This document shows, piece by piece, positions 49,236 through 61,614 of a stretch of DNA of 64,000 nucleotides. The DNA is from Tabrizicola sp. TH137 (GTDB lineage: Bacteria; Pseudomonadota; Alphaproteobacteria; Rhodobacterales; Rhodobacteraceae): positions 1 to 64,000 of the forward strand of contig NZ_PKRQ01000005.1 of NCBI RefSeq assembly GCF_002855575.1. Direction: 5' to 3'. Under the pieces are notes generated by a model, which had not been told where the DNA came from, searched no databases, and saw only the letters and a list, made by a program, of their open reading frames with translations. Both the position numbers and the translations under genes were made by a program. Each line of letters opens with the position of its first letter. The first letter of the stretch is position 1.

Positions 49236-50525
49236 TCAGCCGGACGGGGGCAGGATCAGAATGGCGCGGAAGTCGTTCACATTGGTCAGGGTGGGGCCGG
49301 TGATGACCTGATCCTTCAGGGCGGCGAAGAAGGAATGGGCGTCGTTGCGGGCCAGGGATTGCGCGGCGTCGATCCCGGCGGATGTGGCGCGGGGGAGTGT
49401 ATCGGGGGCGATGACTGCGCCCGCCACCTCGGCCGCGCCATCGACACCGTCGGTGTCGCAGGCCAGCGCATGGATGCCCGGGGTGCCGTTCAGGGCGAGG
49501 GCAAGGGCGAGGCAGAATTCGGCATTGGGGCCGCCGATCCCGTCGCCGCGGCGGGTGACGGTCAATTCGCCGCCCGAGAGGAGGAGGACGGGCGGGTCGG
49601 TCGGGCGCAGTGCGGCGCGGATCGCCTGCGCCTGCGCGGCCTGGGCTGCGGCGACCTCGCGCGCCTCGCCTTCCAGCGCGTCGCCGAGAAGGCGGACGTC
49701 GATCCCTGCGGCGCGGGCCAGAGTGGCGGCGGCCTCCAGCGACTGGGCGGGGGCGGCGATGACGCGGTTTTCAACGCGCGTGAGACGCGGATCGCCGGGG
49801 GGCACCACGCCCGAGCCTTGCGCCAGCGCCGCTGTGACGGAAGCAGGCACCGGGATCGACCAGCGGTCAAGCACGGCGCGGGCATCGGCAAGGGTGGAAG
49901 GATCGCCCACCGTCGGCCCCGATCCGATGAAGGCGGGGTCATCCCCCGGCACGTCGGAGATCATGAGCGCGAGCATCCGCGCGGGGTGGGCGGCGGCGGC
50001 AAGCTGGCCGCCCTTCACGCGGCTGAGATGCTTGCGGACCGTGTTCATCCGGTCGATCGGCGCGCCGGAGGCGAGGAGGGCCGCGTTGACGGCGCGCTTT
50101 TCCTCCAGCGTCACGCCCGTGACCGGGGAAACCAGCAGGGCCGAGGCCCCGCCGGAGATCAGGGCGAGGACGAAATCCTCTTCCCCCAGACCCGAGAGGA
50201 GGTCAAGCATCCGCGCCGTTGCCGCCGCACCTGCGGCATCGGGGACGGGATGGGCGGCCTCCACGATCTCGATCCCCTTGCAGGGGCGGGCATAGCCGTA
50301 GCGGGTGATGACCAACCCTTCGCAGGGGCCCCAGACGCTTTCCACCGCCTCGGCCATGCGGGCGCTGGCCTTGCCTGCGCCGATGACGAGGACGCGACCG
50401 GGGACGCGGCCGGGCGGTTTCGGCGGCAGATGGGCGGGCATCATCCGCATCGGATCGGCCACTTCGACCGCCCGGTCGAAAAGCCCGCGCAGAAAGCCTG
50501 CCGCGCCCGTTTCGTCGATAGCCAT
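49236..50525 (-). CDS. Glycerate 2-kinase (DUF4147/MOFRL, TtuD/GckA type)
   Basis: The 429-residue kinase phosphorylates glycerate to 2-phosphoglycerate. The N-terminal DUF4147 domain has LVIGAGKASARMAEAVE, LISGGASALLVSPVTG and AHPARMLALMISDVPGDDPAFIGSGP. The C-terminal MOFRL domain ends HALACDTDGVDGAAEVAGA and PTLTNVNDFRAIL. The gene follows pxpC by 31 bp; that gap has two TTTACGTA repeats (50538-50554) near its start codon. It may be transcribed with the pxp genes or from its own promoter there. The start at 50525 is the only good ATG. Confidence 0.9.
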   Translation of the reverse strand: MAIDETGAAGFLRGLFDRAVEVADPMRMMPAHLPPKPPGRVPGRVLVIGAGKASARMAEAVESVWGPCEGLVITRYGYARPCKGIEIVEAAHPVPDAAGAAATARMLDLLSGLGEEDFVLALISGGASALLVSPVTGVTLEEKRAVNAALLASGAPIDRMNTVRKHLSRVKGGQLAAAAHPARMLALMISDVPGDDPAFIGSGPTVGDPSTLADARAVLDRWSIPVPASVTAALAQGSGVVPPGDPRLTRVENRVIAAPAQSLEAAATLARAAGIDVRLLGDALEGEAREVAAAQAAQAQAIRAALRPTDPPVLLLSGGELTVTRRGDGIGGPNAEFCLALALALNGTPGIHALACDTDGVDGAAEVAGAVIAPDTLPRATSAGIDAAQSLARNDAHSFFAALKDQVITGPTLTNVNDFRAILILPPSG

Positions 50526-50537
50526 GCCCACCCCCGG

Positions 50538-50554
50538 TTTACGTAATTTACGTA
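50538..50554. promoter_or_regulatory. Two TTTACGTA repeats in the pxpC-glycerate kinase gap
   Basis: TTTACGTA occurs at 50538-50545 and 50547-50554. Each includes the palindrome TACGTA. Repeats 9 bp apart in a 31-bp gap of otherwise GC-rich DNA look like a regulator site or -10-like AT-rich promoter. Confidence 0.35.
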
Positions 50555-50556
50555 TT

Positions 50557-51483
50557 TTATCGTTCCAGCAGCCGCGCCAAGGCGGCGGCGCGCAGCCGGG
50601 CCATCCCCACCGCCTGTTCCGGGCTGACGGCCCGGAAGGCCACCGCCGCATGTGGCCTGAGTTGGGCGAAGCCGTCCAGTTCAGAACCGACCAGCGTGGC
50701 GATCTTGGGATATCCGCCCGTGGTCTGGTGATCGGCCAGCAGGACCACGGGCACGCCGTCGCCCGCCACCTGGATCGACCCGCGCAGCACGGGTTCGGAG
50801 GGGATGGCCAGCGCCGATTGCGGGGCGAGCGAGGGGCCGCGCAGGCGCACCCCCATCCGGTCATAGGCATCGGTCAGGTGGAAGGTCGTGCCGAGCAGAA
50901 GGTCGATCCGGTCGGAACCGAAGAAGCGGTCCTGCGGGCCGATGACCACCGCCACCTCGCCGCGCGGGCGGGCCCAGACCGGGCAGGCGATCGGGCGTTC
51001 GGGCAGGAGGCGCGAGTCTTCGACGACAAGCCGCTGTCCTTTGGTCACCGCGCCGCCGCCCAGACCGGACAGGGCATGGGTGGCGCGGCTGCCCAGCCAA
51101 TCGGGCGCGATCAGGCGCCCGGCGAAGGCCATCACGCTCCACGCCCCCCAGGGACCGCGCCGCACCGCCAGCCGGTCGCCTTCGCGCAGGGTGACGACCT
51201 GCCATGAGCCGAGGCGCGTTGACCCGCGGTCCAGAAGAAAGCCACCGCCCGCGATGGCGATGGAGAGCGCGCCTTCCTCCACCTCCAGCGTCAGGCCGCC
51301 GAGCGACACTTCCACCGCTGCCGCGCCGGGCGGATTGCCGAGGCCGTGGTTGGCGAGAGCCAGCGCCGCCCGGTCCATCGCGCCCGAAGCGGGAACGCCG
51401 AAGCGCAGGAAGCCCGCGCGCCCGCCATCCTGGACGGAACAGAGCGGCCCCGCCGCCGTCACGCGCAGCACCGCGCGGGTCAT
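50557..51483 (-). CDS. pxpC: 5-Oxoprolinase subunit C (KipA-like, biotin-dependent carboxyltransferase family)
   Basis: The 308-residue protein of the AHS2/KipA family has VTAAGPLCSVQDGGRAGFLRFG at the start (read in two parts here: GPLCSVQDGG and FLRFGVPASGAMD), then LANHGLGNPPGAAAVEVSLG and LADHQTTGGYPKIATLV. With PxpB and PxpA it hydrolyses 5-oxoproline to glutamate using ATP. The ATG overlaps the pxpB stop, so all three subunits are coupled. Fused forms of B and C exist elsewhere, but here they are separate. The start at 51483 gives a normal length. Confidence 0.9.
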   Translation of the reverse strand: MTRAVLRVTAAGPLCSVQDGGRAGFLRFGVPASGAMDRAALALANHGLGNPPGAAAVEVSLGGLTLEVEEGALSIAIAGGGFLLDRGSTRLGSWQVVTLREGDRLAVRRGPWGAWSVMAFAGRLIAPDWLGSRATHALSGLGGGAVTKGQRLVVEDSRLLPERPIACPVWARPRGEVAVVIGPQDRFFGSDRIDLLLGTTFHLTDAYDRMGVRLRGPSLAPQSALAIPSEPVLRGSIQVAGDGVPVVLLADHQTTGGYPKIATLVGSELDGFAQLRPHAAVAFRAVSPEQAVGMARLRAAALARLLER

Positions 51484-52157
51484 GCCCCCTGCTCCAGTTC
51501 CGAGGCCGGGATACGGCGGAAGCGGACCCTGTCGCCCACGTCGAAGAGGAAGGGATGCGCCTCGGCCCCGGTGAGGATACGGGTGGGGGAGCGGCCGATG
51601 ATCCACCATCCTGTCGGCATGGTGAGCGTCGTCACGAGGCATTGCCCGCCCGCGATGATGACGCTGCCGGCGGGAACGGCGCGGAGGGGGGCGGTCTTGC
51701 GCGGCAGGCGGATCGGCTCGGGGAGGCCGGTCAGATAGGCATAGCCCGGCGCGAAGCCATACATGGCGACGCGGAACTCGCCCGCCAGATGGGCGGCGAT
51801 GACGGCCTCTTCCGTAAGCCCGGTCTGCGCGGCGACGGCCGCCAGATCGGGGGCATGGGGCGGATCGTAGCAGACCAGCACCTCGCGCGGGGTGGCGTCC
51901 TGCGGCACCTCGGGCAGGCTGGCCAGCCGTGCCAGCACCGCCGCCGCGACGGCGGCATGATCGGTCACAAGCGGGTCGAAGATCACCAGCAGGTTGACCA
52001 TGGCGGGCACCAGTTCCACCTGCCCCGGCACGGGATCGCCGCGCAGCGCGCGGTCGAGCGCCCAGACCTGCGCCTGCACCTCGGGCGCGACGGCATCGCC
52101 CAGTTCCACGAGGAGGGCGCGATCCGCCACCGGCACGGCGCGGGGCGGCATGGTCAT
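51480..52157 (-). CDS. pxpB: 5-Oxoprolinase subunit B (KipI-like, AHS1 family)
   Basis: The 225-residue AHS1-family protein has VPVADRALLVELGDAVAPEV, then VLVCYDPPHAPDL, and the signature FRVAMYGFAPGYAYLTGLPE. It forms the PxpBC complex that activates 5-oxoproline. Its ATG overlaps the pxpA stop by 4 bp and its stop overlaps the pxpC start, the standard co-translated trio. Confidence 0.9.
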   Translation of the reverse strand: MTMPPRAVPVADRALLVELGDAVAPEVQAQVWALDRALRGDPVPGQVELVPAMVNLLVIFDPLVTDHAAVAAAVLARLASLPEVPQDATPREVLVCYDPPHAPDLAAVAAQTGLTEEAVIAAHLAGEFRVAMYGFAPGYAYLTGLPEPIRLPRKTAPLRAVPAGSVIIAGGQCLVTTLTMPTGWWIIGRSPTRILTGAEAHPFLFDVGDRVRFRRIPASELEQGA

Positions 52158-52918
52158 GGCCCCGCGAAGGGCCGCAGGGCGAGGCCCGCGCCTTCCAGCG
52201 CTGCCCGCACGGCCCGCGCCATGGCGACGGAATCGGGGCTGTCGCCGTGCACGCAGATGGAGCCCGCATCAAGGGCGATCTCGCCCCCGCCCAGAACCGG
52301 CATCCGGCCGGTTTCCACGAAGTGCCGCATCCGCGCGGCGGCCTCGGTTGCGTCGTGCAGCACGGCCCCCGGCTGGCCGCGCGGAACGAGGCGGCCTTGC
52401 GCGGTATAGGCGCGGTCGGCGAAAACCTCGGCCACCACGGGCAGGCCGGCCTTGCGGCCTTCGCGTTCCAGTTCGGTGCCGGAGATGGCGAGAAGGGCCA
52501 GCCGCCCCGGCTGCGCCGCGACGGCGCCCGCGATGGCGGCGGCGACTTCGGCCCGGTCGGCGGCGAGATTGGCCAAAGCGCCATGCGCCTTGACATAGCG
52601 GACCGGCACCCCGGCCAGCGCCGCCACGCCCAGAAGCGCCCCGATCTGGGCCGCGACCATGCGGCCGATCTCGGCGGGGGTCATGGGGATGATGCGGCGG
52701 CCGAACCCCTCGCGGTCGGCAAAGCCGGGATGGGCGCCGACGACCACGCCGCGCGCGGCGGCGGCGCGGAGGGTGGCGAACATCACCTCGGCATCGCCGG
52801 CATGGCCGCCGCAGGCGAGGTTGGCGCTGGTGACCAGGTCCAGAAGGGCGGCATCGTCGCCCATCGTCCAGGGGCCGAACCCTTCGCCCAGATCGGCATT
52901 CAGGTCGATCTCGCGCAT
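52154..52918 (-). CDS. pxpA: 5-Oxoprolinase subunit A (LamB/YcsF family)
   Basis: The 254-residue LamB/YcsF-family protein has the N-terminal signature DLNADLGEGFGPWTMGDDAALL, read here as NADLGEGFG, then SANLACGGHAGD, VGAHPGFADREGFGRR and VKAHGALANLAA. It carries the hydrolytic center for 5-oxoproline in the PxpABC complex. It is the first gene of the pxpABC-glycerate kinase unit. A possible second use on another small lactam cannot be excluded, because a cluster for a lactam-forming N-heterocycle pathway lies just past the tRNA gene. Confidence 0.92.
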   Translation of the reverse strand: MREIDLNADLGEGFGPWTMGDDAALLDLVTSANLACGGHAGDAEVMFATLRAAAARGVVVGAHPGFADREGFGRRIIPMTPAEIGRMVAAQIGALLGVAALAGVPVRYVKAHGALANLAADRAEVAAAIAGAVAAQPGRLALLAISGTELEREGRKAGLPVVAEVFADRAYTAQGRLVPRGQPGAVLHDATEAAARMRHFVETGRMPVLGGGEIALDAGSICVHGDSPDSVAMARAVRAALEGAGLALRPFAGP

Positions 52919-53084
52919 TGCCCCTCCTTCTGATTCGCCCGGCTTGCGGGTGCCGATCCTGCCCGCCCCCTGCGGGAAGCGAAACCCGTTGCGGCAGGCG
53001 CGCAGGGGGCAAAAGGAGAAACCGGCGATTATCCCCCTTGCGCCGGGATTTGGCCTTCGTTAAATCCGCCCCACCTGCCAGCGT

Positions 53085-53159
53085 GGCCCGTTCGTCTATC
53101 GGTTAGGACACCAGGTTTTCAACCTGGGAAGAGGGGTTCGACTCCCCTACGGGCTGCCA
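53085..53159 (+). tRNA. tRNA-Glu (anticodon TTC)
   Basis: The 75-nt gene has the acceptor stem GGCCCGT/ACGGGCT, D-arm TCTATCGGTTAGGA, anticodon stem-loop CCAGG-TTTTCAA-CCTGG with anticodon TTC, T-arm GGGGTTCGACTCCCC and an encoded CCA. It decodes GAA/GAG. It lies between pxpA and the nicotinate-type operon. Confidence 0.96.
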
Positions 53160-53201: not shown

Positions 53202-53786
53202 TCAGCGCAGCCCGTCCTTGCCGATGGCCGCCTCATGCGTCAGGCCGCCGACGCGGGGCAGCGGGCGGCCGCCATCGGTGACGGCGACGGCGACCATGAT
53301 CTCGGCGGCGCGGGGGCTGTCGTTCAGGCGGACCTCGATCCCGTCGAAATGGCTGCGGACATAGGCGGCATCCTTGTGGCCGAGCGGCACGTCCAGCACC
53401 TGCCCCGGACCGCCCATCTTCTTGGACGAGGGCACCAGTGCCGCGCCGCCGCCGACGGCTTCGCGCAGGGGGGCGCCGAGTTTGGGGTGGAGGATCGCGG
53501 CGGCATGTTCCAACTCGCCCGCCTCGCCCACCATGGCGGCCTTGCCATAGCTCTGGGCCTGTTCGGGGGCGATGCCCAGCGCCGCCACGCAGCGCCGCCC
53601 CAGAAGCGCGCCGAGTTCGGCGCCGATCTCGGTCAGCGGGGTAAGATCCTCGACATAGCGGCCGGCGAAGGGATTGGCGATCACCGCCACGGCGACGGCC
53701 TTGCGGGTGGGGGGCGCGATGGGGCGCCCGGCCTCGTGATGCGTTTCCTCGACCCAGACGGCGAGCTTGCGGATATCGGCACTCAT
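53202..53786 (-). CDS. AA_synth (PF06684) family protein, paralogue A
   Basis: The 194-residue protein of the amino acid synthesis family has AVIANPFAGRYVEDLTPL, a GKAAMVGEAGELEHAAAILHP segment, ALVPSSKKMGGPGQVLDVPL and VRSHFDGIEVRLNDSPRAAE. The family has no proven chemistry. A close relative is encoded directly upstream, with overlapping stop and start codons (4 bp), and both lie at the end of an operon with a molybdenum hydroxylase and 6-hydroxynicotinate reductase. They may form a heteromer acting on an intermediate of this route. No signal peptide or membrane segment is seen. Confidence 0.75.
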   Translation of the reverse strand: MSADIRKLAVWVEETHHEAGRPIAPPTRKAVAVAVIANPFAGRYVEDLTPLTEIGAELGALLGRRCVAALGIAPEQAQSYGKAAMVGEAGELEHAAAILHPKLGAPLREAVGGGAALVPSSKKMGGPGQVLDVPLGHKDAAYVRSHFDGIEVRLNDSPRAAEIMVAVAVTDGGRPLPRVGGLTHEAAIGKDGLR

Positions 53787-54367
53787 CTCAGACCATCCTC
53801 TCCCTTGATGTCGGTGGCGGCGAGCCCGCCTGAACGGGCATGGACCCGCGCGCCGGTGGTCATCACGAGGACGACCATCATCTCGTCGGCGCGGGGGCTG
53901 TCATTCAGGCCGACCTCCATCGAATCGAAATGGCTGCGGACATAGGAGGCATCGACATGGGTGATCGGCACGTCGAGCCTTGCGCCGACCCCGCCGACCT
54001 TTTTCGACGAGGGGACGATGGCCTTGGCACCGCCCAGCACCTCGCGCATGGCATAGCCGCCGGGGGCGTGCCAGAGCGCGCCATGTTCCAGCTCGCCCGC
54101 GCTGCCGATCAGCGCGCCCTTGCCATAGCCTTCGATGGCGTCGGGATTGCCGCCGAGTTCGGCCAGAAGGCGCTGCGCCATCTGGAGGCCGAGGGGTTTC
54201 AGATCCTCCATGAAGGGCTGGATCTCTTCGACATAGGCCCCGGCGAAGGGGTTGCGGATGACGGCCATGATCGCCCCGCGGCGCAGCGGGGTGGCGGCGA
54301 CCGGGCCGCCTTCGTGGAAGATCTCTTCCACCGCCGTGGCGAGTTTGCGCAGGATGACGTCAGGCAT
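53783..54367 (-). CDS. AA_synth (PF06684) family protein, paralogue B
   Basis: The 194-residue relative of the preceding protein has AVIRNPFAGAYVEEIQPF, GKGALIGSAGELEHGALWH, AIVPSSKKVGGVGARLDVPI and VRSHFDSMEVGLNDSPRADE. The two are the same length and align without gaps, so they arose by duplication. The main difference is LWHAPGGYAM here against ILHPKLGAPL in paralogue A, next to the shared GELEH. The start at 54367 overlaps the UPF0280 stop by 8 bp. Role unknown; see the neighbouring enzymes. Confidence 0.75.
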   Translation of the reverse strand: MPDVILRKLATAVEEIFHEGGPVAATPLRRGAIMAVIRNPFAGAYVEEIQPFMEDLKPLGLQMAQRLLAELGGNPDAIEGYGKGALIGSAGELEHGALWHAPGGYAMREVLGGAKAIVPSSKKVGGVGARLDVPITHVDASYVRSHFDSMEVGLNDSPRADEMMVVLVMTTGARVHARSGGLAATDIKGEDGLR

Positions 54368-55199
54368 GGCAGGGGCTCCGCAGGAGAAGGGGATGTGTCT
54401 CGCCGACCAGCCGGGTCTGGCCGTCGAGGAAGAGGGCGACCGAGGTTGCAAGGCCGCGCGCACAGATCGCCCGCGCCGTTTCTGCGGCCCGGTCCAGGGC
54501 TTGGGCCACTTCGGCCATGGCAAGCGGGCCGCGCCCGGTGGTGACCATGCGCGGGCCGAGATCGCTGTCGGGCTGGAGCGCATCGGCCCGGCTGCGGCGG
54601 ATGGCGGGATGGCCGGGAAGATCGACATCATTGGCGATGAGCGTGGCGGCGACATCGGCCATGGCCGCAGAGGGGGCCAGCACGGTGACGGCATCCGCGA
54701 TGCCGAGCGAGTGGCTGCGCCCGCCGAGGCCCGAGGTCGCGCAGCCGCGGATGGGGCTGTCATGGGACAGGTCCACCCGGCCCAGATCGCGCCCGTCCGG
54801 GGCGGCGATGGCGAGGCGGAAGCCGTGGCCTTCGGCAAGGTGCAGGGCGATATCGCCGCCATTGTTCACATAGGCCCGCGTCAGGCGGCAGACGGTCATG
54901 GCGGCCAGAACCTCTTCGGCCACGGCCCCTGCCACTGCCGCCATGGGCGTGACGAAGACGGGCCGGTGCGGCAGGCAGGCGGCGACCATGCGGCGGGCCG
55001 TGGTGCCGGTGGCGGGGTCGCCGACGGGGCGGCGCAGGAGGGGCAGTTCCGCCACGAGTTCGGGCAGGAGGGTGCGGAACCGGTCCCAGGCGGCGCGGAA
55101 GGCGGCCTCGCGGTCGCCTTCCGCGCCGATGATCAGGTCGATCGGCCCGTGGCGCAGATGCAACCGGTCATCAAGGCGCTGCGCGACGGGGGCCTCCAT
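54360..55199 (-). CDS. UPF0280 family protein, ApbE-like fold
   Basis: The 279-residue protein matches the UPF0280 pattern: FVTPMAAVAGAVAEEVLAAM, TRAYVNNGGDIALHL, SPIRGCATSGLGGRSHSLGI, ADAVTVLAPSAAMADVAAT and ANDVDLPGHPAI. The family is related to ApbE, the flavin transferase that links FMN to a Thr of target proteins, and the NNGGD motif corresponds to its metal/flavin site. The neighbour upstream is 6-hydroxynicotinate reductase, whose Eubacterium homologue is reported to hold covalent flavin. A flavin transfer job is therefore a reasonable guess but is unproved. No signal peptide is seen, unlike periplasmic ApbE. Confidence 0.78.
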   Translation of the reverse strand: MEAPVAQRLDDRLHLRHGPIDLIIGAEGDREAAFRAAWDRFRTLLPELVAELPLLRRPVGDPATGTTARRMVAACLPHRPVFVTPMAAVAGAVAEEVLAAMTVCRLTRAYVNNGGDIALHLAEGHGFRLAIAAPDGRDLGRVDLSHDSPIRGCATSGLGGRSHSLGIADAVTVLAPSAAMADVAATLIANDVDLPGHPAIRRSRADALQPDSDLGPRMVTTGRGPLAMAEVAQALDRAAETARAICARGLATSVALFLDGQTRLVGETHPLLLRSPCHA

Positions 55200-56647
55200 C
55201 AGCGGCCCCAGGGGAAATGGATGGGGGCGAGCGGTTCCTCTTCGGAACTGACCAGCCGGATATCGGGCTTGAGCACGCTGCTGACCGGGCGGACGTGATC
55301 CACATGGCCGCCCAGCGCGGCATAGTCGGACAGGCGCAGGGTGAATTCGATGGGGGCGACGAGGGCCGGGGTCGGGACATAGCCGAAGGAATTGACGGGC
55401 ATGTCCAGCACATCCGCCATGACGGTGATGCCGCCGCCGGGCCAGACATAGGCCTGCGCCCCGCCGCAGGTGACGCGGGTCAGCGCCGCCTTCACCGATT
55501 GCGTGAGCCGGACGGGATTGGAGGTGACCCCCGCCCGGAGCGAGCCGCCCGCCCCGGCCATGAAGACCACCGAGCAGACCGAGGGTTCGCAATTCTCGCC
55601 GATCAGGCGGGCGCTTTCGGCGAGGCCGGGCAAGGCCTCGGCCGGGCGCGGGACGAGGTCCGCGTCAAGTTCGTAATAGCCCCATTGTTCGCCCGTGGTG
55701 GAGATCATCAGAAGCCGCAGGCCGGGCCAGGCGACCTTGGGGTCGAAGGGTTTCAGGATGGTGAGCGGGTCTTCGACATCCGTCCCGCCCCAGCCGCGGC
55801 CGGGATGGGCGACCTGGAAATAGCGGCCCGGCGTGGAGCGGCGGCCATTCAGCCGGATGCCGGTGGCGGGGATGTCGAGGAGCTTGCCCGCCTGATGTTC
55901 CGACAGGACGCCGGTGATGTGGTCATCGACCACCACCACCTCATCCACCTGACCCAGCCATTGCTTGGCGAACATGCCGATGGTGGCCGAGCCGCAGCCT
56001 ACCCGCATCAGCTTTTCCGCCACGCCGTTGATGACGGGGGCCTTGCCCGCCTGGATCACCACCGTCGCGCCGTCGTCGATGGTCACCTCCACCGCCTCGC
56101 GGTTGCACAGGCGCATCAGGGCATCGCAGGTGACGCGGCCTTCCTTCTTGCTGCCGCCGGTCAGGTGCAGCACGCCGCCGAGCGACAGCATGGCCGAGCC
56201 ATATTCCCCGGTCATCACATGGCCGACGGGTTCGCCCTCCACCCGCACCAGCGCGCGTTCGGCGCCGATATGACGATCGGTGTCGATCTTCACCTTGACG
56301 CCGCAATAGCTGAAGATGCCTTCGGTGACGACGGTGACCATGTCCACCCCGTCGATCTTCTGGCTGACGATGAAGGGGGCGGGCTTGTAATCGGGATAGG
56401 TGGTTCCGGCACCGACGGCGGTGACGAAGGTCCGTCCGCCCTGGATCAGGTCGCCGTCCCAATCCTCGGTCGTAAGGAACGGCACCGCCTGCGCGCCGGA
56501 TTGCAGCACGGTGAGCGGATCGAGCCGGACCAGTTCGCCCTTGTGATTGGCATAGCGGTCGCAGGCCCCGGCGCGGCCTTCGGCGATGTAGCACATCACC
56601 GGGCAGGCATCGCAGCGGATCTTTTCGGGGGTGGGCGTGTCAGTCAT
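55199..56647 (-). CDS. hnr: 6-Hydroxynicotinate reductase
   Basis: The 482-residue iron-sulfur protein matches the enzyme that reduces 6-hydroxynicotinate to 6-oxo-1,4,5,6-tetrahydronicotinate with ferredoxin. The N-terminal cluster motif C12-x2-C15-x3-C19-x9-C29 is visible (CDACPVMC), with further Cys in SYCGVKVK (115), VTCDALMRLC (174, 181) and TRVTCGGAQAY. Conserved blocks include FVTAVGAGTTYPDYKPAPFI and VEDPLTILKPFDP. TIDDGATVV (residues 189-197) contains a D-x-GAT-like segment that could be a flavinylation site; this is speculation. It overlaps the Mo-enzyme stop by 8 bp and the UPF0280 start by 1 bp, so they are coupled. Identity rests on family recall and gene context. Confidence 0.75.
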   Translation of the reverse strand: MTDTPTPEKIRCDACPVMCYIAEGRAGACDRYANHKGELVRLDPLTVLQSGAQAVPFLTTEDWDGDLIQGGRTFVTAVGAGTTYPDYKPAPFIVSQKIDGVDMVTVVTEGIFSYCGVKVKIDTDRHIGAERALVRVEGEPVGHVMTGEYGSAMLSLGGVLHLTGGSKKEGRVTCDALMRLCNREAVEVTIDDGATVVIQAGKAPVINGVAEKLMRVGCGSATIGMFAKQWLGQVDEVVVVDDHITGVLSEHQAGKLLDIPATGIRLNGRRSTPGRYFQVAHPGRGWGGTDVEDPLTILKPFDPKVAWPGLRLLMISTTGEQWGYYELDADLVPRPAEALPGLAESARLIGENCEPSVCSVVFMAGAGGSLRAGVTSNPVRLTQSVKAALTRVTCGGAQAYVWPGGGITVMADVLDMPVNSFGYVPTPALVAPIEFTLRLSDYAALGGHVDHVRPVSSVLKPDIRLVSSEEEPLAPIHFPWGR

Positions 56648-59357
56648 ATCCGGCTTCCTTCAGGGCGGCACGCAGCCGGGCGGGCGTCACGGGCAGGCGG
56701 CGGACCGACACCCCTGTCGCGTCGCGGATCGCGTTCAGGATGGCGGGCGCGGTGGGGATCAGCACATGTTCGCCAAGCCCCTTGGCCCCGTAGGGACCAT
56801 GCGCATCGGGTTCCTCGATGATCAAGGTCTCGATGGGGGGGAGGTCGCCGATGGTAGGGATCAGGTAGTCGTGCAGGTTCTCGGTCCGGCCGGGGATGTA
56901 TTCCTCCATCAGCGCCATGCCGAGACCCTGGGCGATGCCGCCCTGAACCTGGCCTTCGACGAGGAGCGGGTTGATCGCCCGGCCCACATCATGCGCGGCG
57001 GTGAAGGAGAGCGGGCGGACGAGGCCGAGCTTCACATCCACCTCGACCACGGCCAGATGGGCGGCATAGCCGAACTGGGCATAGGGCGCGCCCTGCCCGT
57101 CGGCATCGAGCGGCCGGGTGGGCGGATCGTAGCTTTCCTGTGCCGCGAGGACATAGCCGGAGCTGTCGGGCGGCAGGGTCGCGAGGTCCAGCCGCTGGCC
57201 GGCGGCGGCGACAGTGCCGGGGCCGAAGGTCAGGGCCGCATCCGGGGCGACATTGAGGCGGGTGGTGATGGCGCGGCGCAAGGCCTCGCCCGCCAGCCGG
57301 GCCGCGTTGCCGGTGACGAAGGTCTGGCGCGAGGCGGAGGTCTTGCCGGCATCGGGCGTGAGGTCGGTATCGGGGCCGATCAGGCGGATCAGGCCCATCG
57401 GCGCGCCCAGCGCGGTGGCGAAGATCTGGGTGATGACGGTATTGGCCCCCTGCCCGATATCCATGGCGCCCTGATGCAGGACGATGGTGCCGTCGGCCTG
57501 CACACCGGCCCGGATGGTGGAGGGGTTGGGCAGCGAGGTATTGCCGCAGCCATACCAGCCGGAGGCGAGGCCGACCCCGCGCCGCAGCGGGCCTGCGCCC
57601 GCGTTGAAGGCACGGGTTTCGGCGCGGGCGCGGTCATAGGCGGGGCGCAGGGCTTCGAGGCAGGCGGCGATGCCCACGCCCTGCGGGAAGACCTGGCCGC
57701 AGACCGTGGGCTGGCCGTTGCGCAGGGCGTTGAGCAGGCGGAATTCCAGCGGGTCGATCCCCAGCCGGGCGGCCAGTTCGTCGAAGAGGCCTTCCTGCGC
57801 CACTGCCGATTGCGGCACGCCGAAGCCGCGGAAGGCGCCGGAGGGCGGGCAATGGGTGTGGATGGCCCGCGTCTCGGCCCGGTAATCCGGCACGAGATAG
57901 GGGCCGGAGGCATGGACCGGCACGCGATTGGCCACGGTCGGCCCCCAGGAGGCATAGGAGCCGGTGTTGAAATCGCCTTCGAACACCATCCCCGAGAGCC
58001 GCCCCTCTGCCGTCGCCCCGAGCCGGAGGCGGATGGCGGAGGGGTGCCGCTTGGTTGTCGATTGCATGGATTCGGTGCGGCTGTAGGTGATGCGCGCGGG
58101 GCGCCCGGTTTTCAGCGCGGCCAGCGCCACGAAGGGCTGGACCGAGATGTCGAGCTTGGAGCCGAAGCCGCCGCCGACCGCCGTCGGGACGATGCGGATA
58201 CGGGACGGGTCCATCGCGAGGACCTCGGCCATGGACTCCTGATCCATCACCGGGGCCTGGGTGCAGGCGTGAATCTCCAGCCTGTCGCCGACGAGCCGGG
58301 CGAAGCCTGCCTCGGGTTCGATATAGGCATGTTCGACGAAGCCGGTCTCGAAATGACCCTCGACCACCACGGCGGCGGCGGCCAGCGCCGCCTCGGCATC
58401 GCCGCGCCGCACGCGGCCCCGGCACATCACGTTGCCGGCGCGGTCGGGATGCAGGAGCGGCGCATCCTCGGCCAGCGCCTCGGCCGGGGTGAGGACGGCG
58501 GGGAGCGGGGTCCAGGTCACGGGGAAGGTGGCAGGGTCGAAGCGGGCGATGCGGTCGGCCTCGCCCACCACGGCGGCGATGGCCTCGCCGCGGAAGCGGG
58601 CTTCGCTTTCGGCGAAGACCGGCTGATCGACGAAGGCCGGGATGACGCCAAAAGCGTTGCGCCCCGGCACATCGCGGGCCGTCAGCACGACAAGGCCGGT
58701 CTGCGCGGACCATGCCGCCAGATCGCCGAAGCGGAAGGCGGCGCGGGGATGGGGCGAGCGGATGACCTTCACGACAAGGGCATCGGGCGGGGCGACGTCA
58801 TCGCCATAGGCTTCGTCGCCGGTGATCTTGGGCAGGCCGTCGATGCGGGGCATGGCGGTGCCGACACCGCCCGGTTCCGCCGCCGCCTGCCCCGCCCCCA
58901 CCACAGCGTCGATGATCTTGCGATAGCCGGTGCAGCGGCAGAGGACGCCGCCCAGCGCATCCTGCACCTCGGCGGTGGTGGGGTCTGCCACCGCGCGCAG
59001 GAGCGCCACGGCGGCAACCATCATGCCGGGCGTGCAGATGCCGCATTGTGCCGCCTGATGCGATTCGAAGCTTTGCACCAGCCTCTTTGCGACAGGGTCG
59101 GCGAGGACGCCTTTCAGCGTTTCCACCCGCCGCCCGGCCGCCTGATGGGTGGGCATCAGGCAGGCACAGACGGGGCGGCCATCGACCAGCACGGAACAGG
59201 CCCCGCAATCGCCGGCATTGCAGCCAAGCTTCACCTCGCGCGCGCCGAGCGTTTCGCGCAAGGTATGCGACAGGCGTTCGCCCGTCTCGGGCAGGGCGGT
59301 GACGGGCCCGCCGTTCAGGGTGAAATGGACAGCCGCCGATTGCCCCTGCACCGTCAT
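56640..59357 (-). CDS. Fused FeS + molybdenum hydroxylase (xanthine dehydrogenase family; nicotinate-type)
   Basis: The 905-residue protein joins a small 2x[2Fe-2S] domain to a large molybdopterin domain. Plant-type cluster Cys are C46, C51, C54, C66 (CNAGDCGACSVLVDG), and the second cluster uses C105, C108, C140 and C142 (QCGICTPGMM; LCRCTGY). The Mo part has AVGGGFGSKLDISVQ, PSGAFRGFGVPQS, GAMDIGQGANTVITQ and the catalytic Glu in YGAKGLGEHVLIP. Members hydroxylate purines or N-heterocycles such as nicotinate at a ring carbon. It lies between an FAD subunit gene and the 6-hydroxynicotinate reductase, so nicotinate 6-hydroxylation fits best. Fusion of S and L but not FAD is a variant form. 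Confidence 0.85.
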   Translation of the reverse strand: MTVQGQSAAVHFTLNGGPVTALPETGERLSHTLRETLGAREVKLGCNAGDCGACSVLVDGRPVCACLMPTHQAAGRRVETLKGVLADPVAKRLVQSFESHQAAQCGICTPGMMVAAVALLRAVADPTTAEVQDALGGVLCRCTGYRKIIDAVVGAGQAAAEPGGVGTAMPRIDGLPKITGDEAYGDDVAPPDALVVKVIRSPHPRAAFRFGDLAAWSAQTGLVVLTARDVPGRNAFGVIPAFVDQPVFAESEARFRGEAIAAVVGEADRIARFDPATFPVTWTPLPAVLTPAEALAEDAPLLHPDRAGNVMCRGRVRRGDAEAALAAAAVVVEGHFETGFVEHAYIEPEAGFARLVGDRLEIHACTQAPVMDQESMAEVLAMDPSRIRIVPTAVGGGFGSKLDISVQPFVALAALKTGRPARITYSRTESMQSTTKRHPSAIRLRLGATAEGRLSGMVFEGDFNTGSYASWGPTVANRVPVHASGPYLVPDYRAETRAIHTHCPPSGAFRGFGVPQSAVAQEGLFDELAARLGIDPLEFRLLNALRNGQPTVCGQVFPQGVGIAACLEALRPAYDRARAETRAFNAGAGPLRRGVGLASGWYGCGNTSLPNPSTIRAGVQADGTIVLHQGAMDIGQGANTVITQIFATALGAPMGLIRLIGPDTDLTPDAGKTSASRQTFVTGNAARLAGEALRRAITTRLNVAPDAALTFGPGTVAAAGQRLDLATLPPDSSGYVLAAQESYDPPTRPLDADGQGAPYAQFGYAAHLAVVEVDVKLGLVRPLSFTAAHDVGRAINPLLVEGQVQGGIAQGLGMALMEEYIPGRTENLHDYLIPTIGDLPPIETLIIEEPDAHGPYGAKGLGEHVLIPTAPAILNAIRDATGVSVRRLPVTPARLRAALKEAGYD

Positions 59358-60190
59358 GCGCCTGCCCCTTTCGCGATCAGTTCATCCAACAAGCGCGACA
59401 GCATCTCGGCCACGGCCTCGATACGGAAGGCGTCGGTTCCCCGGATATCCGTCAGCGGTGCCAATCCGTCGAGATCCCCTGCCTCCACCCGGACCGGTTG
59501 GTCCGCGGGATGGCCGCGCAGACGCGCCTCCAGCCGCGGCAGGCGGCGGGCGACAGGGGAACAGGCGCCGACGGCCAGGCGGGCGTCGGTCAGCCGCCCC
59601 TCCGACAGGCGCAGCGCGCCGGCGACCATGACGATGGAGATGACCATGTAGCGCCGGGCGCCCAGCTTGGCGAAGCCCGCCAGCGGGGTTTCGGGATCGG
59701 GGACGAGCACGGCGGAGAGAAGTTCATCGGGCTGCCGCGCCGTCCGGCGCGGACCGAGCAGGAAGTCGGCCAGGGCAAGTACCCGGACCCCGCGCGGCGA
59801 CACGAGTTCCACCTGCGCATCGAGTGTGAGAAGCGGCGGCACCCCATCGGCGGCGGGGGAGGCGTTGCAGAGATTGCCGCCGATCGTGCCGGCATTCTGG
59901 ATCTGGAGCGAGCCCACCTCGCGCGCGGCGGCGCGCAGGCCGTCGAAGGCGGGGGGAAGATCGGCCTCGGCGATGTCCGTCCAGGTCGTGGCGGCGCCGA
60001 TGCGCCAGCCCTCCGGCCCCTGCGAGATGCCGCGAAAGCCGGGCAGCGCGGTGACGTCGAGGATCGGCAGATCGGTGAGATGGTCGCGCGGCCCGGCGAA
60101 CCAGTCCGTCCCCCCGGCGATCACCGCGACGGGCCCGCGCGAGAGTGCGGCGAGGGCCTCTTCCATCCGGGTTGCAGAAAGATAGCTCAT
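59354..60190 (-). CDS. FAD-binding subunit of the molybdenum hydroxylase
   Basis: The 278-residue protein of the CO dehydrogenase/xanthine dehydrogenase FAD-subunit fold has PVAVIAGGTDWFAGPRD, the IQNAGTIGGNLCNASPAADG motif that binds FAD phosphate, and a C-terminal CO_deh_flav domain (AKLGARRYMVISIVMVAGAL). It takes electrons from the Fe-S clusters and passes them to NAD or a quinone. I start at MSYLSATRMEE (60190), 12 codons inside the open frame. The frame before it contains an AT-rich palindrome region more likely to be the promoter. It is the first gene of the six-gene operon. Its stop overlaps the next ATG. Confidence 0.85.
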   Translation of the reverse strand: MSYLSATRMEEALAALSRGPVAVIAGGTDWFAGPRDHLTDLPILDVTALPGFRGISQGPEGWRIGAATTWTDIAEADLPPAFDGLRAAAREVGSLQIQNAGTIGGNLCNASPAADGVPPLLTLDAQVELVSPRGVRVLALADFLLGPRRTARQPDELLSAVLVPDPETPLAGFAKLGARRYMVISIVMVAGALRLSEGRLTDARLAVGACSPVARRLPRLEARLRGHPADQPVRVEAGDLDGLAPLTDIRGTDAFRIEAVAEMLSRLLDELIAKGAGA

Positions 60191-60408
60191 CCTGGGGACC
60201 TGGGCTTGAAACTTGTTCGCATGCAAATAAGAACCCGGCCCGCTGCTTCTGTCAAATCCTATCGACGGCCGCCGTGCCGATAATCCGCCGCGGCGGCCTT
60301 CGGGCGGGGGGCGCGCTGAAAGAACGATCCTGCAAGATGCGCTTGATCCGTGGGGAAAGACTGTTAGCCTACGAATGACAGGACCACAGGCTCATCCGGA
60401 GGTGCCAC
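60191..60408. other. Divergent promoter region with candidate operator
   Basis: The 218-bp gap separates the divergent FAD subunit operon and the enamidase gene. TTCGCATGCAAA (60216-60227) is a near-perfect palindrome, flanked by GTTC and GAAC (60215-60218, 60231-60234). It lies 26 bp from the FAD-subunit start and is a likely site for a regulator of this catabolic cluster. TTGATC and TAGCCT near 60344-60375 could serve as a promoter for the enamidase gene. Confidence 0.4.
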
Positions 60409-61614
60409 ATGAGCGAGACGCAGAGCAAGCTGGTGATCCGGAATGTCGGCCTGATGCTGTCGGGGCGGATGGAGGCCCCGATCCTCGATGCCGATTGCCT
60501 GATCGCGCTGGACGGGCGCATCACCGCCTGGGGGCGGGCGGCGGATCTGGATACCGAGGGGGCCACGACCGAGATCGACGCGCAGGGCGCGACCCTGGCG
60601 CCGGGGCTGATCGACAGCCATGTCCACCCGGTTGTGGGGGATTACACGCCACGGCAGAGCCAGTTGAACTGGATCGATTCCACCCTGCATGGCGGGGTGA
60701 CGACGCTGATCTCGGCGGGCGAGGTGCATATGCCGGGTCGCCCGCGCGACATCGTCGGGTTGAAGGCCATGGCGATCGCGGCGCAGCGCTGGTACGAGAA
60801 TTTCCGCCCCTCGGGCGTGAAGGTGATGGCGGGGGCGCCGGTCATCGAGCATGGTCTGGTGGAAGAGGATTTTCGCGAATTGGCCGCCGCCGGGGTGAAG
60901 CTTCTGGGCGAGGTGGGGCTTGGCACCGTGAAGGATGGCAAGACCGCGCGGCAGATGGTGGATTGGGCGCGGAAATACGGCATCCAGAGCACGATCCACA
61001 CCGGCGGCCCCTCGATCCCCGGATCGGGGCTGATCGACGCGGATATGGTGCTGGAGACGGGGACGGACATCATCGGCCATGTGAATGGCGGCCATTCCGC
61101 CCTGCCCGATGACCAGATCATCTGCCTGTGCGAAAGTTGCAGCATGGGGCTGGAGATCGTGCATAACGGCAATGAACGGGCGGCGCTGCTGACGCTGAAC
61201 ACGGCGCGGGAACTGGGGCAGATGGACCGCATTCTTCTGGGCACCGACGGGCCGGCCGGATCGGGGGTGCAGCCTCTGGGCATCCTGCGGATGATCGCGA
61301 TGCTGTCGAGCCTGGGCAATGTGCCGGCAGAGATCGCCTTCTGCTTTGGCACCGGCAACACGGCGCGGCAGCGCAATCTGGACACGGGCATGATCGAGAC
61401 GGGCTATTGCGCGGATTTCGTGCTGATGGATCAGGCGCAGCATACGGCGGGGAAGACGATCCTTGAGTCCGTGCAGTTCGGCAATCTGCCGGGCGTGGGG
61501 ATGACGATCATCGACGGGGTGGTGCGCAGCCAGCGCAGCCGCAACACCCCGCCCGCCTGGCGGGTGCCGAAGATCCTGCGCCAGCCCGCCCCGGCCGAGG
61601 GCGGCGGCCACTAG
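60409..61614 (+). CDS. ena: Enamidase (amidohydrolase family), tetrahydro-6-oxonicotinate ring opening
   Basis: The 401-residue TIM-barrel amidohydrolase has the metal motif GLIDSHVHPVVGDYTPRQ (His-x-His), STIHTGGPS, DIIGHVNGGHSALPDDQ and the Asp of LLGTDGPAGSGVQPLG. Its first half (GGVTTLISAGEVHMPGRP) matches the enamidase of nicotinate fermentation, which hydrolyses 6-oxo-1,4,5,6-tetrahydronicotinate to 2-formylglutarate and ammonia. This is the product of the reductase encoded across the divergent promoter. CCGGAGG lies 6 nt before the ATG. Related imidazolonepropionase-type hydrolases are the main alternative, but the context favours enamidase. Confidence 0.75.
   Translation: MSETQSKLVIRNVGLMLSGRMEAPILDADCLIALDGRITAWGRAADLDTEGATTEIDAQGATLAPGLIDSHVHPVVGDYTPRQSQLNWIDSTLHGGVTTLISAGEVHMPGRPRDIVGLKAMAIAAQRWYENFRPSGVKVMAGAPVIEHGLVEEDFRELAAAGVKLLGEVGLGTVKDGKTARQMVDWARKYGIQSTIHTGGPSIPGSGLIDADMVLETGTDIIGHVNGGHSALPDDQIICLCESCSMGLEIVHNGNERAALLTLNTARELGQMDRILLGTDGPAGSGVQPLGILRMIAMLSSLGNVPAEIAFCFGTGNTARQRNLDTGMIETGYCADFVLMDQAQHTAGKTILESVQFGNLPGVGMTIIDGVVRSQRSRNTPPAWRVPKILRQPAPAEGGGH

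Follow-up and report, generated by a model that had tools for sequence, protein, structure and literature searches.

A compact gene cluster in Tabrizicola sp. TH137, located in the stretch of 64,000 nucleotides analysed here (contig NZ_PKRQ01000005.1, positions 1 to 64,000; hereafter the window, to which all positions refer), is a genuine nicotinate operon, conserved and of a type seen before, the route itself having already been described in related bacteria. The best explanation as a whole, which we regard as probable, is a nicotinate catabolic operon in which a protein of the UPF0280 family loads the flavin of 6-hydroxynicotinate reductase (HNR). The first-pass annotation of this DNA had left UPF0280 unexplained, and the evidence now points to a definite role for it. 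Six minus-strand genes are transcribed in the order flavin adenine dinucleotide (FAD) subunit, fused iron–sulphur (FeS) and molybdenum (Mo) hydroxylase, HNR, UPF0280 and two AA_synth paralogues, with successive junctions overlapping by 4, 8, 1, 8 and 4 bases according to the coordinates and the junction letters. An enamidase gene on the plus strand diverges from the FAD subunit gene across a gap of 218 bp (60191–60408), which contains a palindrome. The six genes with their overlapping start and stop codons, facing the enamidase over 218 bp, all lie where the first-pass annotation had placed them (Table 1). The FAD subunit and the FeS-Mo hydroxylase would convert nicotinate to 6-hydroxynicotinate, HNR would convert this to the delta-lactam 6-oxo-1,4,5,6-tetrahydronicotinate (THON), and the enamidase would open the THON ring to yield 2-formylglutarate and ammonia, with the carbon from 2-formylglutarate going on via glutarate.

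UPF0280 travels with HNR. An even sample of 289 alphaproteobacterial genomes contained 44 with HNR, and the UPF0280 model NF003322 (PRK04334), which the window protein matches at 346.9 bits (cut-off 290), gave matches in 48. After four weak matches were dropped (genomes G099, G109, G121 and G143), the remaining 44 UPF0280 genomes were the same 44 that carry HNR; 42 of them scored above the family cut-off, two (G064 and G087) had UPF0280 in fragments, and no strong match was seen in the 245 HNR-less genomes. The gene lies directly downstream of HNR on the same strand in 43 of the 44; in the last genome, G231, only part of HNR was matched, and UPF0280 sits at base 32 of another contig. A further sample of 28 HNR genomes from a phylum set (25 of the same class and three of other classes) gave the same picture, with UPF0280 above the cut-off and adjoining HNR on the same strand in 28/28, the match ends being 12–555 bases apart.

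The surroundings were compared across named loci, that is, the best 80 of 585 relatives in the HNR search, which are near kin of the window and all proteobacterial. Their counts include one locus twice, since HNR was found at both ends of a single deposited contig, probably an unclosed circle (PCCY01000007.1; L047 and L049 are the same HNR). UPF0280 follows HNR directly in 78 of the 79 named loci with room for it, L103 (below) being the exception; two AA_synth genes are present in 67/76, and a hydroxylase lies upstream of HNR in 71/78. The cluster arrangement is not due to chance and is kept across relatives, and the co-occurrence of the six genes in Rhodobacterales and Rhizobiales, which the first-pass annotation had put forward as a check, was borne out by this comparison.

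The predicted structure of the UPF0280 protein (predicted local distance difference test (pLDDT) score 94.8, built with 49 sequences) has the fold of the flavin transferase ApbE. The top PDB match, with two chains, is the Desulfovibrio protein 2O34, which is assigned to DUF375; the next 39 matches are ApbE, FmnB and Ftp chains, and the first other protein appears at rank 42. The 41 best matches had E values from 1.4e-9 to 0.037, with 21 of them at E ≤ 0.001. A profile comparison of UPF0280 with 13 ApbE proteins gave E = 1.6e-7 and a probability of 93.9%, with the GGD, ATSG and ADxxxT stretches aligned, and the Pfam ApbE model matches 23 of 49 UPF0280 members at E ≤ 0.1. Residues S156, D182 and T186 are invariant in 132/132 UPF0280 sequences, and R161 is kept in 131/132. 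A review of ApbE lists Ser241 and Asp285 of the V. cholerae enzyme as conserved and His257 as the general base (PMC12052999); S156 and D182, in the ATSG and ADxxxT stretches, correspond to that Ser and Asp. With ApbE, FmnB and Ftp (PMC12052999, PMC4767422), UPF0280 shares the fold, two catalytic residues (Ser and Asp) and the ADxxxT stretch, and it is presumably cytosolic, as are a minority of ApbEs.

Because UPF0280 occurs in the same genomes as HNR and has an ApbE fold, we propose that it acts like an ApbE; most simply, it would be a flavin transferase dedicated to HNR. Its start codon overlaps the HNR stop, and the presumably cytosolic protein would supply HNR with its flavin, most likely by transferring flavin mononucleotide (FMN) covalently from FAD, and would not itself be a pathway enzyme. 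A role as an ordinary pathway enzyme was considered and rejected, since HNR is its sole partner in the sample and its fold is that of ApbE.

Several observations weigh against a transferase. Template modelling (TM) scores against ApbE chains are 0.26–0.53, which makes the relation distant, and the window protein falls below the Pfam ApbE cut-off (18.8 vs 25.6 bits). The general-base histidine has no counterpart: the histidine loop lies beside alignment gaps, and position 163 of UPF0280 (n = 132) is L in 60 sequences, F in 47, H in 17, Q in 6 and M in 2. The ApbE target motif D-x-x-[ST]-G-A-[ST] (DxxSGAT) was found in 0/137 HNR sequences and so points to no attachment site; fully or almost fully conserved Ser and Thr residues of HNR, among them T82/T83, S220, T375 and T382, are candidate sites. 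With both the histidine and the target motif missing, UPF0280 is no canonical ApbE. The linkage to HNR also has its exceptions. The four dropped NF003322 matches fall in HNR-less genomes (19.7–29.5 bits, E 4.6e-7 to 6.5e-4), two of the 14 control genomes, those of the methanogens Methanocaldococcus jannaschii and Methanosarcina acetivorans, hold UPF0280 relatives below the cut-off, and one locus from a metagenome-assembled genome (L103) has HNR and hydroxylase but no UPF0280 detectable by profile in the 21 kb fetched. Given the weak matches in the four genomes and the two methanogens, the wider family must have other partners, as it probably does in methanogens. When the DNA of L103 was read by eye, a frame resembling an FAD oxidoreductase was seen after HNR in place of UPF0280.

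The main rival to the transferase reading is non-covalent loading, in which UPF0280 would aid HNR as an FAD pyrophosphatase or flavin chaperone making FMN and handing it over, or as a helper in FeS–flavin assembly. An ApbE fold combined with the missing general base and missing target motif would suit such a role, as would the FAD hydrolase activity seen in some ApbEs (PMC12052999); the strict one-to-one linkage with a single enzyme, however, better suits a target-specific modifier than a general flavin supplier, the HNR of Eubacterium barkeri reportedly carries its flavin covalently, and we consider non-covalent loading unlikely. As regards the transferase itself, the broader proposition that UPF0280 represents a second kind of dedicated flavin transferase, with the ApbE fold but another base and a signal other than DxxSGAT, paired one-to-one with an FeS–flavin ring reductase lacking known structural relatives and acting in a pathway whose ring opening is a swappable enamidase/HyuAB module (see below), appears to us evenly balanced.

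The presumed target stands apart from known families. For the window HNR, Pfam yielded no family at E ≤ 0.01, NCBIfam gave nothing better than E 0.032 and the PDB held no sequence relative (best E 0.9), and a fold search of the PDB with its AlphaFold2 model (pLDDT 79) gave no match at E ≤ 0.001; GCV_T_C matched 44 of 49 HNR sequences weakly (best 0.0002). The protein is 62–86% identical to 48 orthologues, among which C12, C15, C19, C29, C115, C218 and C353 are invariant, and it takes its name from orthologues annotated as 6-hydroxynicotinate reductase in plasmid records. The HNR of Eubacterium barkeri reportedly contains a covalently bound flavin and FeS clusters. The reductase of strain SG-6C and that of E. 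barkeri are 42% identical (PMC3511419). In two genomes of otherwise good quality the HNR match falls into two pieces (L166, G028:C1:2969820-2971198; L170, G475:C2:210165-211598).

The predicted enzymes of the steps before and after HNR point to the nicotinate route. The hydroxylase is, by its domains, a molybdenum enzyme of the xanthine dehydrogenase family; the best single PDB chain for the fused protein is aldehyde oxidoreductase 1SIJ (380 bits), and the nicotinate dehydrogenase 3HRD is nearest by summed bits (chains A + B + D, 581 bits over a similar length), so that nicotinate is its predicted substrate. The E. barkeri dehydrogenase consists of separate chains (3HRD), whereas the FeS-Mo chain of the window is fused. 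The enamidase is clearly homologous to that of E. barkeri (2VUN), which it aligns with nearly end to end (residues 6–390 of 401) and which is its sole PDB match at E ≤ 1e-10; the aligned stretches include those containing His and Asp residues that we take to bind metal. In E. barkeri, nicotinate dehydrogenase, HNR and enamidase are said to act in series. The later steps of the E. barkeri fermentation are not in the window.

The first-pass annotation had suggested that this aerobic alphaproteobacterium uses the reductive nicotinate route. The enzymes and the pathway are supported; the idea is not new, being known from an earlier study (PMC3511419), according to which strain SG-6C, with a cluster of this type, degrades nicotinate and 6-hydroxynicotinate as a carbon source. 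That account already noted extra conserved genes of unknown function in such clusters, and its authors expect SG-6C to continue as Azorhizobium does, from THON to tricarboxylic acid cycle intermediates via glutarate; the THON route is the same in E. barkeri and Azorhizobium (PMC9304392). The first-pass view that the pathway continues elsewhere fits this glutarate route, and it fits the presence of a coenzyme A (CoA)-transferase family in at least 10 of 101 HNR loci, of which the member scanned is similar to succinate-glutarate CoA-transferase (530 bits vs a cut-off of 750). Neighbour counts, including these 101-locus counts, are lower bounds, as the simple gene caller used misses or misplaces genes in GC-rich DNA. 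The Azorhizobium caulinodans/Bradyrhizobiaceae cluster (SG-6C, PMC3511419) has a putative nicotinate ABC transporter, whereas none was recognised beside the six genes of the window.

A cluster that degrades some other 3-carboxylated N-heterocycle, with nicotinate as a side substrate, would be in keeping with the absence of any assay of this HNR group from the literature examined, and with those named loci that have no hydroxylase of this type beside HNR (7/78). Nevertheless, both the enamidase and the hydroxylase are nearest to nicotinate enzymes, Neorhizobium NCHU2750 carries a gene annotated nicB 8 kb from hnr, and SG-6C degrades the two compounds as described above, which together make this account very unlikely.

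Enamidase, the predicted ring opener of the window, is one of two found with HNR. The first set comprised the 44 HNR genomes and three more from other classes. Of these 47, 21 carried an orthologue of the enamidase (≥66% identity) and 26 a close-group HyuB (≥64% identity, a line drawn at a gap running from 64 to 52%), with no genome having both and none having neither. A fresh set (n = 25) had enamidase in 13 (two at 63%) and HyuB in 14, with both in two and neither in none; the two genomes with both (G395 and G462) are those with the enamidase at 63%, so the exclusion is not absolute. Combined, at least one ring opener was present in 72/72 HNR genomes and exactly one in 70. In at least 14 of the 26 first-set genomes that have it, HyuB and HNR are no more than 15 kb apart, and all 26 genomes with HyuB at ≥64% among the 289 carry HNR; HNR-less genomes reach 63% (G217), 61% (G114) and 54–57% (five more), the highest being just under the line.

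On a quick tree of HNR from 33 of the 47 genomes, those with a near-complete HNR locus, the enamidase/HyuB label changes at least six times, with at least four changes forced by well-supported branches, while still being clustered (shuffled mean 11.3 changes; 0/500 shuffles as low). In view of these repeated switches, enamidase and HyuAB most likely share a substrate, the HNR product. We judged it unlikely that HyuAB marks a different substrate, given the label changes on the tree and the nicB-annotated gene near hnr in Neorhizobium. In that genome, NCHU2750 (L202), the nicB-annotated gene (nicotinate dehydrogenase) is accompanied by downstream hyuAB and by a ferredoxin reductase close by, and L202 together with five other Rhizobiaceae loci (L100, L101, L102, L104 and L111) has the order HNR-UPF0280-AA_synth-HyuA-HyuB, without a hydroxylase or enamidase of the window type nearby.

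As THON is a delta-lactam, ATP-dependent lactam hydrolysis would be chemically fitting. The best NCBIfam models for HyuA and HyuB of L100 are those of caprolactamase (483.8 and 326.8 bits, below the equivalog cut-off of 1000). HyuA shares with caprolactamase CapAB (PMC8453981) the phosphate motifs DVGGTFTD and DMGGT, but in the PDB it is nearer to N-methylhydantoinase (7HK5, 414.8 bits) than to CapA (6YRA, 347.7 bits). HyuB is nearest to CapB and aligns with its metal site (D41, H99, H124 and an Asp three residues past H99, counted by hand). Among the matches listed by our literature search, most subscription journals being outside its coverage, no paper linking HyuAB with nicotinate was found, PMC3511419 was the sole paper naming 6-hydroxynicotinate reductase, and the term UPF0280 was not found, though it may be in print.

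The two AA_synth proteins of the window score far above the cut-off of Pfam PF06684 (246.6 and 240 vs 27 bits). In the corresponding cluster of R. pomeroyi, the second AA_synth protein (AAs2) is PDB entry 2QTP (SPO0826), with one substitution in 193, so that a structure filed under this family comes from a comparable cluster, and the name "amino acid synthesis" is doubtful. The report on the PF06684/DUF1185 structures 3BYQ and 2QTP (PMC2954203) reads neighbouring transporter genes as serving branched-chain amino acid transport, whereas we think it more likely that transporter genes in this kind of cluster carry the pathway substrate. At L074, transporter genes follow the HNR-UPF0280-AA_synth operon. 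One AA_synth protein (L202:12970-13554) is annotated "peptide synthetase" in its plasmid record.

AA_synth is present in 21/21 HNR genomes with enamidase (18 in one search, three in another). Its wider distribution counts against a role confined to this pathway: it is missing in 5 of the 44 HNR genomes (present in 39) and present in 17 of the 245 HNR-less ones (after one weak match, G056, was dropped), and is therefore not strictly tied to the HNR step. We examined 20 AA_synth sites away from HNR, comprising 16 of the 17 HNR-less genomes and four extra sites in HNR genomes, that of Tabrizicola sp. TH137 included; family names of neighbours derive from one scanned member each, below the cut-offs. 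A PcaD-like hydrolase and/or luciferase-like monooxygenase is near ten of the 20 sites, seven of the ten having an aldehyde dehydrogenase family and four a flavin reductase family, and an enamidase-like gene adjoins three of the 20. The ten sites resemble trigonelline operons, going by the gene content we assume for these. The genome under study has a third AA_synth gene (L141:8064-8606; G000:C22:102063-102593). Genes of the aldehyde dehydrogenase, luciferase-like monooxygenase and flavin reductase families lie near it, and the arrangement resembles a trigonelline (N-methylnicotinate) operon.

The nicotinate and trigonelline routes probably each include a 2-formyl dicarboxylate that has to shed CO2 to give a semialdehyde, and this is the step at which we propose a role for AA_synth. 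The pair would most likely take part directly after the ring is opened, its target being either the 2-formyl acid (enol-aldehyde) or the decarboxylation of this acid to the semialdehyde; the more specific suggestion that it speeds tautomerisation or decarboxylation of the 2-formyl dicarboxylate is tentative. AA_synth might instead assist the reductase or the enamidase, as a subunit or as an activator, with no enzymatic step of its own. The two copies within the HNR-UPF0280 operon (67/76 named loci), their retention in Rhizobium and Agrobacterium loci that have no hydroxylase and enamidase of this type nearby, and the description of the relative TgnF as stimulating another enzyme, in the oxidation of succinate semialdehyde (PMC7913881), would all fit such an auxiliary. 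At the same time, AA_synth occurs without HNR in other enzyme contexts (the 17 of 245 genomes), a relative with a BCM-like fold forms hexamers with a large cavity (PMC2954203), and attempts at stimulation with HcdD failed (PMC7913881). An auxiliary role is possible, and we put it forward with some reserve.

The palindrome in the 218-bp promoter, already pointed out in the first-pass annotation, is real: it is unique in the window, with 0 expected in shuffles of the window. Across seven aligned promoters it is close in four (that of the window included), degenerate in two and missing in Flavimaricola. The strict pattern was found in 14 of the 80 named loci (1.5 Mb searched without a shuffled control), and most of these sites adjoin called starts of FAD subunit, ferredoxin reductase, enamidase or HNR genes; L044 and one of the two sites in L106 have no such called start close by.

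A repressor of the MarR type sensing 6-hydroxynicotinate probably binds this palindrome. A MarR gene is present in at least 70 of 101 HNR loci; that of the genome under study lies beyond the window (70814–71242) and shares 61% identity with its counterpart in the Planktotalea frisia cluster. In BpsR, which also belongs to the MarR family, 6-hydroxynicotinate is bound by Tyr15, His23, Arg26 and His32 (PMC6837509). The spacing of Tyr, Arg and His32 is kept in 58 of 70 MarR proteins, four of which have all four residues, while two of the others keep less of the site and ten gave no pattern. Against such a sensor, 54 of the 70 have F or Y at the position of His23. NADPH is the probable electron source for HNR, with a ferredoxin reductase and a ferredoxin as carriers: the former family was found in at least 30 of 101 HNR loci (the scanned reductase being below its NCBIfam cut-off), and ferredoxin genes in at least 7 of 101.

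Table 1 Genes and proposed promoter elements of the nicotinate cluster, with window positions
Feature	Position	Strand	Evidence or remark
AA_synth paralogue 2 (PF06684)	53202-53786	-	Pfam 1.3e-73; position and type as SPO0826 / PDB 2QTP
AA_synth paralogue 1 (PF06684)	53783-54367	-	Pfam 1.4e-71; PDB 3BYQ 1.8e-56
UPF0280 protein with the ApbE fold, putatively a flavin transferase or loader specific to HNR	54360-55199	-	NF003322, structure model, co-occurrence with HNR
HNR, 6-hydroxynicotinate reductase, FeS and putative flavin enzyme	55199-56647	-	Orthologues so named in plasmid records
Fused FeS and molybdopterin subunit of predicted nicotinate dehydrogenase, 905 residues	56640-59357	-	Fer2_2, MoCoBD_1, MoCoBD_2
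FAD subunit of molybdenum hydroxylase (predicted nicotinate dehydrogenase, NdhF-like)	59354-60190	-	PF00941 3.2e-38, PF03450 1.7e-12; ATG at 60190, AGG upstream
Palindrome TTGTTCGCATGCAAATA, proposed MarR-type repressor operator	60212-60231 (60213-60229)	none	Over likely -10 region of hydroxylase operon
-35-like TTGACA of minus-strand operon	60250-60255	-	TCTGTCAAA block identical in 7/7 promoters; ~17 nt from palindrome region
Enamidase promoter-like CTTGATC .. TGTTAGCCTA	60342-60371	+	Conserved block in 7 aligned promoters, weaker in Flavimaricola
Enamidase, predicted to open 6-oxo-1,4,5,6-tetrahydronicotinate	60409-61614	+	PDB 2VUN E. barkeri enamidase, E=1.2e-106

Beyond the enamidase, a glycoside hydrolase gene (MGH1-like, PF22422; 61636–63819) begins 22 bases past its end, with further genes on that strand past the window edge; although functionally unrelated, it may be reached by read-through transcription from the enamidase promoter. 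Beside the other end of the cluster (49236–53159) lie a DUF4147/MOFRL gene, frames that by eye resemble subunits of the 5-oxoprolinase type, a LamB/YcsF gene and a tRNA-Glu, with no sign of operon membership.

These findings bear on a reductase that is present in 44 of 289 genomes and for which we found no Pfam family, matching solved fold or known maturation factor. The new parts of the picture are a proposed flavin loader for HNR, an interchangeable ring opener and a corrected context for AA_synth, the last of which questions the family name carried in annotations of such clusters. The alternative ring opener would supply a natural substrate for an ATP-dependent lactamase-like group. If the proposed loading of HNR is true, the uncharacterised UPF0280 family would gain its first testable function, and ApbE-type flavinylation would reach a new class of target.

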